A stretch of 64,000 nt of DNA from Tractidigestivibacter scatoligenes (GTDB lineage: Bacteria; Actinomycetota; Coriobacteriia; Coriobacteriales; Atopobiaceae): positions 62,001-126,000 of the forward strand of contig NZ_LOJF01000001.1 in NCBI RefSeq assembly GCF_001494635.1, read 5' to 3'. Numbering within the stretch: the stretch's first letter is position 1; each line of letters opens with the position of its first letter. Of the stretch, positions 7,953 through 12,449 are shown piece by piece. Below the pieces are notes generated by a model. It had not been told where the DNA came from. It searched no databases and saw nothing but the letters and a program-made list of their open reading frames with translations. The position numbers and the translations under genes are program-made.

Positions 7953-8258
7953 CTAAGGCTCCTTGTAGGCGATGAGCAGGCTAGATGCCAACCACGCGAG
8001 GGTCGCAATCGTGGCAACACCAACCGCGATGTAGAAGAGCGCCATTGCTGCCTGCGCATTTGTGACGGCACTCTCATAGGTAGACGTTAAGGAATAACTG
8101 GTTATCGCACTAGCAGAGGCGTCGGACAGCGTCCTTGATGCTTTGTCGAGGAGCGACGCATACACCATCCCAAGCACACCAGATGCCACCAGCGAGCCAA
8201 TGGACACCTTCTTGGCAGTGCCATGCCATTCAGCGAGCTTTGACTTTGCTTCTGCCAT
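7953..8258 (-). CDS. Small two-helix membrane protein, unknown function
   Basis: A 101-aa protein with a charged start, a hydrophobic stretch at about residues 19-38 (VSIGSLVASGVLGMVYASLL), a Ser/Thr-rich middle and a second helix at about 70-96. AAAGGAAC precedes ATG 8258. It ends just beyond the yfcE terminator and lies 47 bp downstream of the next minus-strand gene, so the two probably share a transcript. I do not recognise a family. Confidence 0.75.
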   Translation of the reverse strand: MAEAKSKLAEWHGTAKKVSIGSLVASGVLGMVYASLLDKASRTLSDASASAITSYSLTSTYESAVTNAQAAMALFYIAVGVATIATLAWLASSLLIAYKEP

Positions 8259-8305: not shown

Positions 8306-9121
8306 CTACTTCGCGGAGTAGTAGTCATCGCCAATCTGGAATGCCTGGACCTCAGCCTTGACCTGCGCGGCATCCGTGGTGGCAGGGGCATCAAACACGG
8401 CGTTCTCACCTGCAGCCCATGAGCTCGCACTAACGTACGTCTCGTCCACACGCGTACCCGATTCGTCGTAAAAGCCAAAGATAACGCTTACATTGCTTAG
8501 ATTCTGGTCAGTCGCATTGGCAATCGTGGCGGTGTACTCGTACATGCCATAGCCTTTGTCGGTCTTGTCGAAGCTAGCCCCGTCGAAGAGCGCTTGGACC
8601 TTGTCGACCATCTGCTGCTGTGGGGTTTCGACGTTCTCGTCCAGCTGGTCTGCGACCATACCGGGAATGGCAACGTCCACTCCAAGGGCTGACGTGTAGT
8701 GATATTGACCGGTGCAGGTGCCGTAGACACCAAGCGCCTGGCCCTCCTGAAGGTGATTGTCCCCAAGCACTGAGTTGTCAATCTTTACGTACACCATGTC
8801 GTCGTAGCCGGACACGTCGGTAGCAAGGCGAACGTCTGTCTCGTTGCTGCCCTCAATGACCTGAGCAACGCTACCCACAAAATAGAGTTTCTGATTCTTG
8901 TAGTCATCGGGGGTCTTGGCGACCTTGGCATAGTCTACCTGCTGATAGTTTGCCGGATCAAACGGCTCGGAGGATGGCTTCGAGGAGTTGCCGCCGAGGG
9001 CTGCCATCACAATGATTACCGCCAGTATCACAAGAATGACAGCGAGGACCTTCTTGCCGCGATGCTTCTTTGGCGTCTTGTCCTCGTTCTTCTCCTGGGT
9101 GGCGTCATCATTCCGCTTCAT
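8306..9121 (-). CDS. Membrane-anchored protein with OB-fold-like and FxLYD-like domains
   Basis: A 271-aa envelope protein. A Lys-rich cytosolic N-terminus is followed by one helix (about 24-43), a Ser/Pro linker, an OB-fold-like region (about 55-150, YKNQKLYFVGSVAQV...ALGVYGTCTG) and a C-terminal beta domain (about 175-270) with the pattern of FxLYD domains (YTATIANATDQNLSNVSVIF). Such proteins are common surface proteins of Actinobacteria and Firmicutes without known activity. GGAGGAATCC precedes ATG 9121. Domain names are from pattern recognition, not a search. Confidence 0.8.
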   Translation of the reverse strand: MKRNDDATQEKNEDKTPKKHRGKKVLAVILVILAVIIVMAALGGNSSKPSSEPFDPANYQQVDYAKVAKTPDDYKNQKLYFVGSVAQVIEGSNETDVRLATDVSGYDDMVYVKIDNSVLGDNHLQEGQALGVYGTCTGQYHYTSALGVDVAIPGMVADQLDENVETPQQQMVDKVQALFDGASFDKTDKGYGMYEYTATIANATDQNLSNVSVIFGFYDESGTRVDETYVSASSWAAGENAVFDAPATTDAAQVKAEVQAFQIGDDYYSAK

Positions 9122-9215
9122 ATGGATTCCTCCTTCTGCGTCGGAGCCCCCTCCACAAGGCCAGGTTCGTTGTCGGGAGCTGAATGCATCCTAGAAGGGC
9201 ACCACGGCTTCTTCA

Positions 9216-9230
9216 TTAGCTCCCAGCTAA
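9216..9230. promoter_or_regulatory. TTAGC-N5-GCTAA dyad, site 1
   Basis: TTAGCTCCCAGCTAA lies directly after the stop of the HTH gene and upstream of the FxLYD gene. The same dyad, with the same leading TTCA, occurs upstream of the HTH gene at 9719-9733. The pair of sites is a candidate operator for that HTH protein. Confidence 0.45.
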
Positions 9231-9231
9231 A

Positions 9232-9681
9232 TCACTGCGAGCGGTGGTCGCCCCGCGCCCTATCTGGCATGATGGTTCGCTCGCCATGCGCCCAGAGAAG
9301 GTCGTCGCACTGCTCGATGCCCACACCATGATGGAGTGCGTATGCAACGATAAGGTCGCGGCAGTTATCGGGCCGCAGGCGGCACGCTCCGCCGCGTTCG
9401 AGCAGTTCGGAGGCATCGCGGATATCCAGCCGCATCCCAAACGCAAGTTGCAGCAGCTTGTCGCGCGAGGCATGCCTAGTTCCCGCAAGAATCTGATACG
9501 CAAAGGTCTGATTGAGGCGGCTGCGATAGATGGCCTCGTTTCTCGGCATCCCACTTGCTGCCATGCTGTCGCGCGCCCAGGCCGAGAGATTCCTCTCGTC
9601 GAGGAATGCATGGGCCAGAACCTCATCGAGGTCCGCGTCGTGCGTTATGGCGTACCAGGGCTCTTCCACGTCCGCCTCCAT
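9232..9681 (-). CDS. HTH-like protein, paralogue of the kinase-linked HTH protein
   Basis: A protein of about 149 aa. The middle (about 45-110) resembles an XRE-type helix-turn-helix: SGMPRNEAIYRSRLNQTFAY, then QILAGTRHASRDKLLQLAFG and LDIRDASELLERGG. The whole core aligns by eye with the protein at 11005-11484, including LNQTFAYQI versus LNPTFCYQI, and the endings CDDLLWAHGERTI versus TDDELWRLGEKTL. ATG 9681 is used; an in-frame TTG lies at 9687 and no good SD is seen. It is downstream of the Ser/Thr kinase gene with about 80 bp between. Function is unknown; a DNA-binding adaptor of the kinase is a guess. Confidence 0.75.
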   Translation of the reverse strand: MEADVEEPWYAITHDADLDEVLAHAFLDERNLSAWARDSMAASGMPRNEAIYRSRLNQTFAYQILAGTRHASRDKLLQLAFGMRLDIRDASELLERGGACRLRPDNCRDLIVAYALHHGVGIEQCDDLLWAHGERTIMPDRARGDHRSQ

Positions 9682-9718
9682 CCGCAATGGATGGTGGCAA
9701 AACGGCGAGCTACTTTCA

Positions 9719-9733
9719 TTAGCTTGCTGCTAA
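9719..9733. promoter_or_regulatory. TTAGC-N5-GCTAA dyad, site 2
   Basis: TTAGCTTGCTGCTAA, preceded by TTTCA, lies about 40 bp upstream of the HTH-like gene start. It shares arms and spacing with the site at 9216-9230. It may be an autoregulatory operator (inference). Confidence 0.45.
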
Positions 9734-9765
9734 AAGACAAGACGGGCGCGAGCGGGGCCTCAAGA

Positions 9766-11004
9766 CTAGCTTCCAGGCGTCAGCGCCACGCACATCGTGA
9801 GGACGGCAACGAACGCAATGAGCAAGCCAAGCCCCATGAGCAGCCGCTTTGCCATAAGGATTACACGGGCAGAGCGTCGCTTGTACTTCATCGCAGCATA
9901 CGGACCCGCCCCCAGCATCGCCGCCGGAATCTCATCCACCAAAAGAAGGACAAGGTAGGCCGTCACGCCAAGAATCACCAGGAGCGATTCCACGGGATGG
10001 TCGCCAGCCATGGCATTGGTGGCGTAGACCGCGGCCGAGCCAAAGAGAATGCCCACAAATGCACCGAGAACCACCAAGGCAACGGTAAGCACCTGCACCC
10101 ACGGCTTGGCCTCAGAGAACGCCGCCACCAACTGGCCAGGCCTCGCCAGCGTTCGCGGGATCTTCTCACGCTTGCTGCTCTTTGCGCCCGAAGTCTTGGC
10201 GTCGTTCCCGACAGCCGCCTCCGGCACTGCTTGCAGCATGGCGTCACGCAGCGCCGTCGCGCTCTGGTAGCGCTCGCTCGGCTCGAAGCGGCAGGCCTTC
10301 TCGACAATGCGCCGCAGCTCGGGGCGGACAATGCCGGGATCCGCAAGTGCCGTCGCATACCCCTCGGCATCCGGGGTAAGGCCCGTGAGCATATAGCCAA
10401 GCAGGCAGCCCACCGAGTAGACGTCGGAGCGGCCGTCGGTCTGGGCAAAGCCGTACTGCTCGGGGGACGCAAATCCCCAGGTACCAAGCCGCGTGGTGTC
10501 GCGCTGGGCGCCCTCGACGTAGGCGCGCGCAATACCTAAGTCGATGAGAACCGCCCCACGCGGGGAGAGAATCACATTTTTTGGAGACACGTCACGGTGA
10601 ACGATGCCCTGCTCGTGGAGGGCGGCAACCGCATCGCAGACGTCAACGATCACGCGCGCCGCCGCGGTCTGTCCCATACGCCCGGCATTGGCCACACACG
10701 TCGCAAGCGACGCCCCATAGACGTATTCGCGAACAATAACTACCTGGTCAGGCAGGTCGTACGTCTCGACCACACGCGGTAGGTGCGCGCCGCAAACGGA
10801 CGAGAGGCGCGAGAACACCTCATCGTTCGCAACGTTGCGCTTGATGCGCTTGCGCACGAGAGGACCCTCGCCCACGTGGCCGGCGCCCTGTCGGCTCACA
10901 ACCTCGGTCGAACCCGCCTCGTTGCTCGCGAGCACGCGCTCCACGCGGTAGGCCTCGTCCTTCTCGAGCGCAGCCATAAGCTGCCCGTCTTCGGAGACAG
11001 CCAC
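9766..11004 (-). CDS. Membrane-anchored serine/threonine protein kinase
   Basis: A 412-aa Hanks-type kinase. The kinase domain spans about residues 18-270 with catalytic loop HRDVSPKN (136-143), DLG in place of DFG (155-157), an activation segment with GTWGFASPEQYG and a DGRSDVYSVGC helix. The glycine-rich loop is degenerate. A linker with basic residues follows, then two or three hydrophobic helices (about 312-408). There are no PASTA repeats, so external ligand sensing of the PknB type is not expected. GTG 11004 follows the HTH stop codon directly, with GGGGGAG 6-7 nt upstream, so kinase and HTH protein are translationally coupled. Confidence 0.9.
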   Translation of the reverse strand: MAVSEDGQLMAALEKDEAYRVERVLASNEAGSTEVVSRQGAGHVGEGPLVRKRIKRNVANDEVFSRLSSVCGAHLPRVVETYDLPDQVVIVREYVYGASLATCVANAGRMGQTAAARVIVDVCDAVAALHEQGIVHRDVSPKNVILSPRGAVLIDLGIARAYVEGAQRDTTRLGTWGFASPEQYGFAQTDGRSDVYSVGCLLGYMLTGLTPDAEGYATALADPGIVRPELRRIVEKACRFEPSERYQSATALRDAMLQAVPEAAVGNDAKTSGAKSSKREKIPRTLARPGQLVAAFSEAKPWVQVLTVALVVLGAFVGILFGSAAVYATNAMAGDHPVESLLVILGVTAYLVLLLVDEIPAAMLGAGPYAAMKYKRRSARVILMAKRLLMGLGLLIAFVAVLTMCVALTPGS

Positions 11005-11484
11005 CTATGCTCCCCCATCGATTAGGGTCTTTTCGCCCAGGCGCCACAGCTCGTCGTCGGTCTGCGCGCGGTCCATGCCGTGCTCCAGACAGAAAATGAT
11101 GATGGCATCGCGACGGTTGCGCGACCACAACTCTGAGGCGCCGGCAAGCCGCAGCAGGCGCTGCGCCTCGACAAGCGAGCAGCCCAGCCCAAATGCCAGC
11201 ATAATCGCGCTGTCACGGCCAGGACGCCGTGCACCCTCGAAAATCTGGTAGCAGAACGTGGGGTTGAGCCCAGATGCACGTATAACCTGCGACTTCTTGA
11301 GCCCATGCGCCTCTCGCACGGCTTCTGCGTACTCCGCGAGTGGGCGCTCTTCCAGGTTTGCGCGCGCAAGGTACTGCTCGGGCGAGGCCGAGGCGAGCAG
11401 CTGCTCTAGCAGCTCCGCCGTGAGGCGCACGGACCCCTCGCCTTTGCCAGACGCCTCGCGCGGCTCCGCCTGCTCCCCCAGCAT
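11005..11484 (-). CDS. XRE-like HTH protein coupled to the Ser/Thr kinase
   Basis: A 159-aa protein with a Glu-rich N-terminal part (LTAELLEQLLASASPEQYLA) and a helix-turn-helix-like core (KKSQVIRASGLNPTFCYQIF, then EGARRPGRDSAIMLAFGLG), followed by a helical tail. ATG 11484 overlaps the metA TGA by 1 nt; the longer reading frame to 11622 runs inside metA and is rejected. The stop is adjacent to the kinase GTG. The gene is thus sandwiched between metA and the kinase in one transcript. Families of this shape often act as kinase substrates or regulators, but that is inference. Confidence 0.8.
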   Translation of the reverse strand: MLGEQAEPREASGKGEGSVRLTAELLEQLLASASPEQYLARANLEERPLAEYAEAVREAHGLKKSQVIRASGLNPTFCYQIFEGARRPGRDSAIMLAFGLGCSLVEAQRLLRLAGASELWSRNRRDAIIIFCLEHGMDRAQTDDELWRLGEKTLIDGGA

Positions 11485-12449
11485 CAGAACTTGTCGACCA
11501 TGCCGTTGGCGCCTGCGTGGAGCTGCTGGATGGTCTGGGGAATGAGGTCCAGGTCGTAGGGGGTCATCTGGTAGACCCAGTTGAGCCAGTTGCGGTAGAG
11601 AAGGTTCGCGTGTGCGCGCCACGTGAAGATGGGCTGGCTCTCGGGGTTGTCGTCCGGGAAGTAGTTCTCGGGCAGACGAATGGGCAGCCCCTTGTGGAAG
11701 TCACGCCAGAACTCGTCGGAGAGCGTGTCGCGGCCGTACTCAAAGTGGCCGGTCACGTAGATCTCGTGGAAGTCTGGCGTGGCGATAATAGCTGGGCCGC
11801 TGGTAAAGCCCTCCGAAAGCACGTGCAGCTCGGGGTGGCGCGCAAGCTCGTTGGTGTCGATGGCGGCGTGGCGCGAGTGCGGCATGTAGTGCACCTCGTC
11901 GAAGCCGTTCGTGAGGAAGTTGTACTCGTCGCACAGGCGCTGCGGGAAGACGCCAAAGAGCTTGGAGCCCAGCTGCTTCTTGGGGATGTGGTACAGGTGC
12001 CAGAGTCCGGCCATGGCGCCCCAGCACAGGTACATGGTGGAGAGCACGTGCTCCTGCGACCAGTCGATGATTCCGCAGAGCTCGTCCCAATAGTCAACGT
12101 CCTCGAAGTCCATCTGCTCCACGGGGGCGCCGGTGATGATGAGGCCATCGTAGTTCTTGTCGGCAAACGAGTCGAACGTATCGTAGAACTTCACGAGGTG
12201 GTCCTGCGAGACGTGCGTGGCCTCGTGCGTCGAGACGCGCATGAAGTCGCAGCTCACCTGCAGCGGCGACTTAGATATGAGGCGCAGAATCTGGGTCTCG
12301 GTCTCGATCTTGGTGGGCATGAGGTTGAGGATGGCCACCCTCAGCGGGCGGATCTCCTGGCGCTCGGCAACCTCTTCCTCGAGGGCAAAGATGCGCTCTT
12401 GGTGCAGGATCTTCTTGGCGGGCAGGCCGTCTGGGATGTTGATAGGCAT
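11484..12449 (-). CDS. metA: Homoserine O-acetyltransferase (MetA family)
   Basis: A 321-aa MetA-type enzyme that acylates L-homoserine at the entry to methionine synthesis. The acyl-enzyme Cys is C142 in YLCWGAMAGL and the GHFEYGRDT segment carries the His/Glu of the active site. Residue 111 is Glu (GAPVEQMDFEDV). In this family Glu111 is associated with acetyl-CoA use and Gly111 with succinyl-CoA, so acetyl transfer is predicted despite the metA name. AAGGAGACATGC precedes ATG 12449. The stop overlaps the next gene (HTH) by 1 nt. Confidence 0.95.
   Translation of the reverse strand: MPINIPDGLPAKKILHQERIFALEEEVAERQEIRPLRVAILNLMPTKIETETQILRLISKSPLQVSCDFMRVSTHEATHVSQDHLVKFYDTFDSFADKNYDGLIITGAPVEQMDFEDVDYWDELCGIIDWSQEHVLSTMYLCWGAMAGLWHLYHIPKKQLGSKLFGVFPQRLCDEYNFLTNGFDEVHYMPHSRHAAIDTNELARHPELHVLSEGFTSGPAIIATPDFHEIYVTGHFEYGRDTLSDEFWRDFHKGLPIRLPENYFPDDNPESQPIFTWRAHANLLYRNWLNWVYQMTPYDLDLIPQTIQQLHAGANGMVDKF

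Follow-up and report, generated by a model that had tools for sequence, protein, structure and literature searches.

A 64,000-nucleotide stretch of the genome of Tractidigestivibacter scatoligenes (the window; contig NZ_LOJF01000001.1, positions 62,001 to 126,000 of the forward strand) carries on its minus strand the gene of a small helix-turn-helix (HTH) protein, HTH1, followed by that of a Hanks-type Ser/Thr kinase. The two proteins probably constitute a module, in which the membrane kinase controls HTH1, an XRE-type class II activator of a small regulon of surface-protein genes. Judged from the sequence, the gene pairing, the short dyads, their fixed distance to a -10 hexamer and the kind of genes behind them are established features of this system. 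The elements of the locus on which this reading draws are the following:

11005–11484, minus strand: HTH1, XRE-type DNA-binding protein and predicted activator (AlphaFold2 (AF2) model, PDB fold matches, pairing with the kinase)
9766–11004, minus strand: Hanks-type Ser/Thr kinase of 412 aa, probably membrane-anchored (Pfam Pkinase, 4.8e-25)
9781–10104, minus strand: kinase C terminus, three long helices (residues 301–408) forming a probable membrane anchor (AF2 model)
9719–9733, minus strand: dyad 1, TTAGCTTGCTGCTAA, minus strand TTAGCAGCAAGCTAA, predicted activator site of HTH2 (motif match)
9691–9696, minus strand: predicted -10 element CACCAT, the weaker one, 22 bp behind dyad 1 (offset rule)
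9232–9687, minus strand: HTH2, paralogue of HTH1 and predicted regulon member (38% identity to HTH1)
9216–9230, minus strand: dyad 2, TTAGCTCCCAGCTAA, minus strand TTAGCTGGGAGCTAA, predicted activator site of the FxLYD gene (motif match)
9188–9193, minus strand: predicted -10 element TAGGAT, 22 bp behind dyad 2 and before the FxLYD gene (offset rule)
8306–9121, minus strand: membrane-anchored protein with a C-terminal FxLYD domain, predicted target (NCBIfam FxLYD_dom, 3.4e-15; dyad upstream)

The initial annotation of this region had placed metA, HTH1, a membrane Ser/Thr kinase and HTH2 in a row and described TGATG and TAG-GTG junctions between the first three; the four genes, all on the minus strand, and both junctions are confirmed. 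The GTG start of the kinase at 11004 sits directly after the TAG of HTH1. HTH2, which starts at TTG 9687 or, more likely, at ATG 9681, is a second copy of the HTH family, as had been stated, and the identity to HTH1 extends over 140 aa. The dyads which had been ascribed to HTH2 exist as well; the second of them is followed by a further gene, 9121–8306, which belongs in the interval too.

The kinase gene accompanies HTH1 throughout the relatives. Sixty genomes, including that of the window (2.47 Mb, 16 contigs), were searched with HTH1; 38 match at E ≤0.001, and 30 loci, the own locus among them, were fetched from this search. A scan of GTDB genomes yielded 270 relatives, the nearest named ones being Olsenella and Tractidigestivibacter, and the best 80 were retained as named loci, which by their titles are Coriobacteriales or unspecified actinobacteria together with nine Bifidobacterium loci; the two sets overlap. 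The kinase lies downstream of HTH1, often abutting or overlapping it, in 30 of the 30 whole-genome loci, and a same-strand kinase match follows HTH1 in 80 of the 80 named loci. It starts less than 150 nt past the HTH1 stop in 69 of the 80 and up to 434 nt past it in the others, L087 set aside, where the matched part begins late within a kinase frame that itself starts at the HTH1 stop. The contig ends inside the kinase in seven named loci, and in Collinsella bouchesdurhonensis (L086:5620-5814) the kinase match ends after about 65 residues and looks broken; a canonical dyad stands before this broken gene. Among 296 genomes of the phylum, 23 match the HTH1 family, 19 of them from the same order, all but one at E <1e-45, while the other four fall outside the order and reach no better than E 8e-5. 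What is conserved as a unit is HTH1 with the kinase behind it. The survey of relatives which the initial annotation had proposed thus bears out its uncharacterised HTH-kinase module, kept in Coriobacteriales and Bifidobacterium, and the arrangement of two HTH genes around one kinase recurs, the kinase being followed by another HTH gene in 15 of the 80 named loci.

The AF2 model of HTH1 (mean predicted local distance difference test score, pLDDT, 80.4) contains the five-helix, lambda-repressor-like HTH of XRE/Cro proteins (helices within residues 49–113) with the recognition helix at residues 75–82, an extra C-terminal helix pair (124–148) and a weakly modelled N-terminal helix (23–31), which is conserved in HTH1 and not apparent in HTH2. 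A Foldseek search against the PDB returns XRE proteins (DdrO, C.AhdI and ClgR) as the best matches, at a lowest E of 0.024 and probability 1.00 and over the HTH part only, and nearly all of the 50 matches listed are XRE-type (probability 1.00, 56–74 columns). The Pfam HTH models are weak and under cut-off (HTH_31 0.0015, HTH_3 0.0066), as is a methyltransferase model scoring 0.00024. HTH1 and HTH2 have the recognition-helix residues N-x-T-F-x-Y-Q-I in common, and Thr76 of HTH1, inside this helix, is at least 90% conserved. In what we take to be the register with the 434 repressor, Q80 of HTH1 corresponds to the base-contacting Gln33 and T76 to Gln29. By their recognition-helix residues the named loci were sorted, after the first dyad had been spotted, into 36 YQ and 44 YD loci. 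In a tree of 69 HTH rows, whose bootstrap had not settled, YD is one clade (100/96) and HTH2 another (100/100), separate from HTH1.

The dyads were first spotted by eye and tested afterwards; a repeat search of intergenic stretches missed them because their arms of 5–6 bases are shorter than its set minimum of 8. Exact TTAGC-N5-GCTAA occurs twice in the whole genome, both times at this locus, before HTH2 and before the FxLYD gene (reversed control 0). A dyad precedes HTH2 in 15 of the 15 loci that bear this gene, in 14 as TYAGC-N5-GCTRA and in L076 with one mismatch. In counts of palindromes over whole loci, TTAGC-N5-GCTAA is present in 14/36 YQ loci and TCAGT-N5-ACTGA in 33/44 YD loci, where it is the top entry (shuffled 0 for both), although several GC-rich palindromes score high too and some exceed TTAGC in the YQ list. 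The two types, called here the Q form (TTAGC-type, of YQ loci) and the D form (TCAGT-type, of YD loci), scarcely mix: with Y/R wobble, TYAGC is found in 25/36 YQ loci and TCAGT in 0/36, while in YD loci TYAGC is found in 2/44, namely L058, which has an odd core, and L088, a true exception. TCAGT dyads are present in six of the nine Bifidobacterium loci. Of 56 exact Q dyads, 27 have an HTH-family gene (E ≤1e-15) no farther than 6 kb away, for an expectation of 0.6%, and exact dyads of both kinds are absent from G006, the sole same-genus genome in which a full HTH gene is lacking. In Atopobiaceae, tandem TCAGT dyads four bases apart stand before the kinase gene (L061:690-723, L062:5503-5536 and, similarly, L064 and L071), an arrangement that recalls the paired activator/repressor operators of C proteins.

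Altogether 106 dyad sites were counted in the 80 loci; for 100 of them, which enter the following count, a gene start is called no more than 400 nt away, and 14 fall within a called gene. With a -10-like hexamer defined as at least 4/6 of TATAAT, such a hexamer occurs at offset 22 behind the dyad in 61 of 111 site-gene pairs, a number in which sites between divergent genes count twice and the two sites of the window are included; the next-best offset accounts for 10/111. After removal of sequences at least 60% alike, the figures are 40/65 and 6/65. When the hexamer is placed at -12, the dyad spans -49 to -35 with its centre at -42, which is the position of a class II activator. The site near -41.5 and fixed -10 spacing that define this class are thus present at the predicted starts in 40 of the 65 pairs, and the sites abut poor -35 elements. 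The full promoter pattern (dyad, N22, NANNAT) was searched in the 60 genomes against its reversal as a control and gave 46 Q matches versus 6, and 14 D matches versus 1. By the same 6-kb measure and expectation, 29/46 Q promoters and 14/14 D promoters lie near an HTH-family gene. Q promoters are commoner in HTH-positive genomes (23/35) than in HTH-negative ones (3/25; p 5e-5), and the own genome, which has no YD regulator, contains 0 D-type promoters. Taken from sequence comparison, DNA binding by HTH1 and HTH2 and activation from the dyads are strongly indicated. Transcription is predicted to begin at about 9684 and 9181. The ATG 9681 of HTH2 lies nine bases after the predicted -10, so that its mRNA is predicted to be nearly leaderless; this arrangement (9681–9696 in the window) is also seen in L039–L044. 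A third Q-promoter match in the own genome, on another contig (G000:C9:66762-66804), is near-identical in the same-genus genomes G002 and G007 and may be either chance in conserved sequence or a further target.

Where the gene behind a site can be read, it is mostly HTH2 or codes for a lipoprotein, a membrane protein or the kinase. The kinase gene is among these genes in YD loci, and HTH1 itself in some YD loci; the products are mostly small surface or membrane proteins. DUF5067 was found in six of ten proteins in one searched batch and in L051, DUF6591 in L056, L062, L063 and L090, Lipoprotein_Ltp in L057 and L040, and SHOCT in L049, while multi-helix membrane proteins, recognized by eye, stand behind sites in more distant families. 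Several proteins behind sites, including most of one ten-protein batch, have no family match, and the few matches seen there are weak and under cut-off. The Ltp domain is known from phages as a superinfection-exclusion lipoprotein. As promoter elements common to surface-protein genes, the dyads point to the likely output of the module, which the initial annotation had missed.

The kinase has the Hanks-type fold with K52, H136-R137-D138, N143, D155 and G157, that is, the catalytic Lys, the HRD...N and the DxG, and these residues are invariant in 41 aligned rows. In the AF2 model (pLDDT 87.7) the kinase fold is followed by C-terminal helices 301–331, 337–364 and 377–408. Their hydrophobic sequence indicates a membrane nature, and the enzyme is probably anchored through them, with no large extracellular domain predicted. 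A profile of the family matches PknB at 8e-42, and the PADLOC PD-T4-6 models match the kinase at 2e-39, though these look like broad kinase-domain models. It scores 124.8 bits with the PASTA kinase equivalog NF033483, for which the cut-off is 450, and has no PASTA match. No phosphatase gene is present among the identified neighbours, the two PP2C_2 matches of the genome being located elsewhere.

In the proposed mechanism, the membrane-anchored kinase would read a cue from the envelope and set the activity of HTH1 by phosphorylation, with the N-terminal helix of HTH1 as a possible contact and Thr22, Thr76 and Thr153 of HTH1 as candidate sites. A dimer of HTH1 would bind 15-bp dyads, TYAGCT-N3-AGCTRA here and TCAGTT-N3-AACTGA in the sister clade, bifidobacteria included, and, centred about 42 bp upstream of the transcription starts, would recruit RNA polymerase as a class II activator. 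The cue, the dimerisation and the phosphorylation are what we infer from this arrangement. A limited number of surface lipoproteins and membrane proteins would form the output of the module. HTH2, whose gene is itself preceded by a dyad, is a probable amplifier or modulator which would amplify or damp the response, and feedback is suggested by the tandem dyads at some kinase promoters of YD loci.

Several observations weigh against this mechanism. Both HTH proteins could bind the dyads, or only one of them. A matching dyad is absent from 11/36 YQ and 11/44 YD loci, and the -10 at offset 22 is missing from 25 of the 65 non-redundant pairs; the genome sets in which the -10 rule was seen and tested overlap, so the test is not fully independent. 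Plain D dyads, taken without the -10, are no commoner in HTH-positive than in HTH-negative genomes (Fisher p 1.0), and a single exact TCAGT-N5-ACTGA, its core odd, lies far from the locus in the own genome, which has no YD gene. The agreement between recognition residue and operator looked like a perfect Q/D code at first and was demoted to a lead: L088 breaks it with a YD helix and two TCAGCT dyads, and YD is one clade, so that the match amounts to about one event. The window kinase lacks a clear glycine-rich loop (no GxGxxG), and no alpha-C Glu is invariant in the 41 rows, for which reason its activity is deduced from the K-HRD-N-D residues. Finally, no HTH-family gene was found within 6 kb of 29 of the 56 exact Q dyads, 17 of the 46 Q-promoter matches lie away from HTH genes and three HTH-negative genomes carry promoter matches. 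The first and the last of these three figures would suit a dyad which serves some other regulator, with HTH1 and the kinase as passengers. This is improbable in view of the clustering of Q dyads and of all 14 D promoters around HTH-family genes, the dyad before HTH2 in every locus that has this gene, and the pairing of two clades of one protein family with two related, equally spaced dyads.

It is unlikely, too, that the HTH proteins are repressors at the dyads, released on phosphorylation by the kinase, for example at Thr76. Most small XRE proteins repress, Thr76 is conserved within the recognition helix, and the second dyad begins 4 bp behind the first before the kinase gene of the four tandem loci; however, the fixed 22-bp spacing to the -10 together with a poor -35 is the mark of activation, whereas a repressor needs no fixed spacing. 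The resemblance of the gene pair to HipBA, with an HTH antitoxin and a kinase toxin, extends to the XRE gene directly preceding the Ser/Thr kinase gene and to a weak sequence match to HipB (8ezt, E 0.012). A toxin-antitoxin pair is nevertheless very improbable: the kinase matches Pkinase and PknB and has probable membrane helices, no HipA model is among the matches listed, and the dyads mostly precede genes other than the pair, though HTH1 in some YD loci. It is scarcely credible that the dyads are RNA hairpins or terminators behind the kinase and HTH2. They can pair, and dyad 2 begins one base past the HTH2 stop codon, but no U tract follows them (TGAAA or GGAAT is often found there), their very base sequence is fixed, the -10 stands at a fixed distance and some sites lie between divergent genes. 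No Rfam match to an RNA element was found up to E 1, and the dyads are not listed by the terminator scan; the simple promoter and terminator scans gave results close to chance (1 vs 0.7 and 4 vs 2.7).

Two further genes flank the elements described above:

11484–12449, minus strand: metA, homoserine O-acyltransferase (Pfam HTS, 4e-124)
7953–8258, minus strand: small probable membrane protein of 101 aa (homologues in the same position in L039 and L041)

The metA gene shares one base with the ATG of HTH1 in the TGATG junction; both the acetyl and the succinyl MetA models of NCBIfam match its product below their cut-offs, the acetyl one best. The initial annotation had described the junctions as coupling three unrelated activities, methionine synthesis included. 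A meaningful coupling is not supported, and as the main point it was rejected, because metA lies within 1 kb upstream of HTH1 in only 20 of the 80 named loci (9/30 in the shorter whole-genome loci), and metA is a neighbour, probably co-transcribed with HTH1 in this genus. The 101-aa protein has no family match in Pfam and NCBIfam searches and is possibly encoded on the same transcript as the FxLYD protein. A homologue of the latter occupies the same position in L039 and L041, and other lipoprotein-like genes do so in L040 and L042–L044.

HTH-kinase fusions were considered and rejected: the four long frames inspected look, by eye, like macrodomain (ADP-ribose) proteins with a C-terminal HTH copy (L221:1142-2308, L222:2602-3690, L223:1147-2295 and L224:2084-3316; HTH profile E 2e-9 to 3e-13). 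The HTH domain family is thus wider than the kinase-linked regulators. A phage origin was likewise rejected, with a single match on a contig of a viral collection (L172:2932-3513). This HTH1 relative of 35% identity accompanies a MobA-like gene (by eye) and lies beside a probable membrane protein, and there is no kinase match by it. Beyond the window, the same genome has six Hanks-type kinase genes in tandem next to a PP2C phosphatase gene (G000:C9:136488-150526, L225:2489-16527), five of the six and the phosphatase being confirmed by Pfam.

The catalytic domain of the window kinase is similar to those of the Hanks kinases PknB, PrkC and StkP. Unlike these, the enzyme is short, has no PASTA match and carries about three C-terminal membrane helices, and its family stands behind an HTH gene in every locus examined, with no phosphatase among the identified neighbours. 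HTH1 has the HTH fold of the C proteins (C.AhdI, C.Esp1396I; XRE/Cro), which also use short dyads upstream of -10, but it differs from them in the extra N-terminal helix and C-terminal helix pair, the kinase partner and the company of surface-protein genes. HipBA also joins an XRE regulator to a Ser/Thr kinase gene, whereas the kinase family, the membrane anchor and the positions of the dyads are different here and the kinase is not of the HipA type. Pkb2/PFNA of Bifidobacterium likewise has a membrane Ser/Thr kinase with linked genes, although it is a different cluster, pkb2-fn3-aaa-atp-duf58-tgm, and the main text of the paper on it (PMC8430577) nowhere uses the terms XRE, HTH or helix-turn-helix. 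An open-access literature search, which left subscription journals mostly outside its reach, returned no earlier description of an HTH-kinase module.

Like two-component systems, the module would pair a membrane kinase with a dedicated DNA-binding activator, but it consists of a Ser/Thr Hanks kinase and an XRE protein, with no His kinase or receiver domain. Hanks kinases are usually regarded as pleiotropic enzymes that have few transcription factors dedicated to them; in this module, gene order links the kinase to a single predicted activator, and the sites and the regulon can be read from the sequence. Tentatively, and at somewhat less than even odds, the module may represent a new class of one-to-one signalling systems, a Ser/Thr counterpart of the two-component systems, in which surface lipoproteins, some with the Ltp domain, are driven by an XRE-type class II activator and the membrane Hanks kinase dedicated to it, through two operator dialects across Coriobacteriales and Bifidobacterium, and the surface is possibly remodelled against phage or envelope attack. 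The module occurs in common gut bacteria, namely bifidobacteria and the Olsenella group, in which regulation has received little study. It supplies an operator, a promoter architecture and a list of targets, all open to testing, and gives context to the lipoprotein families DUF5067 and DUF6591. The evolution of DNA recognition can be approached through the natural exchange of Q for D in the recognition helix and the altered operator that goes with it.

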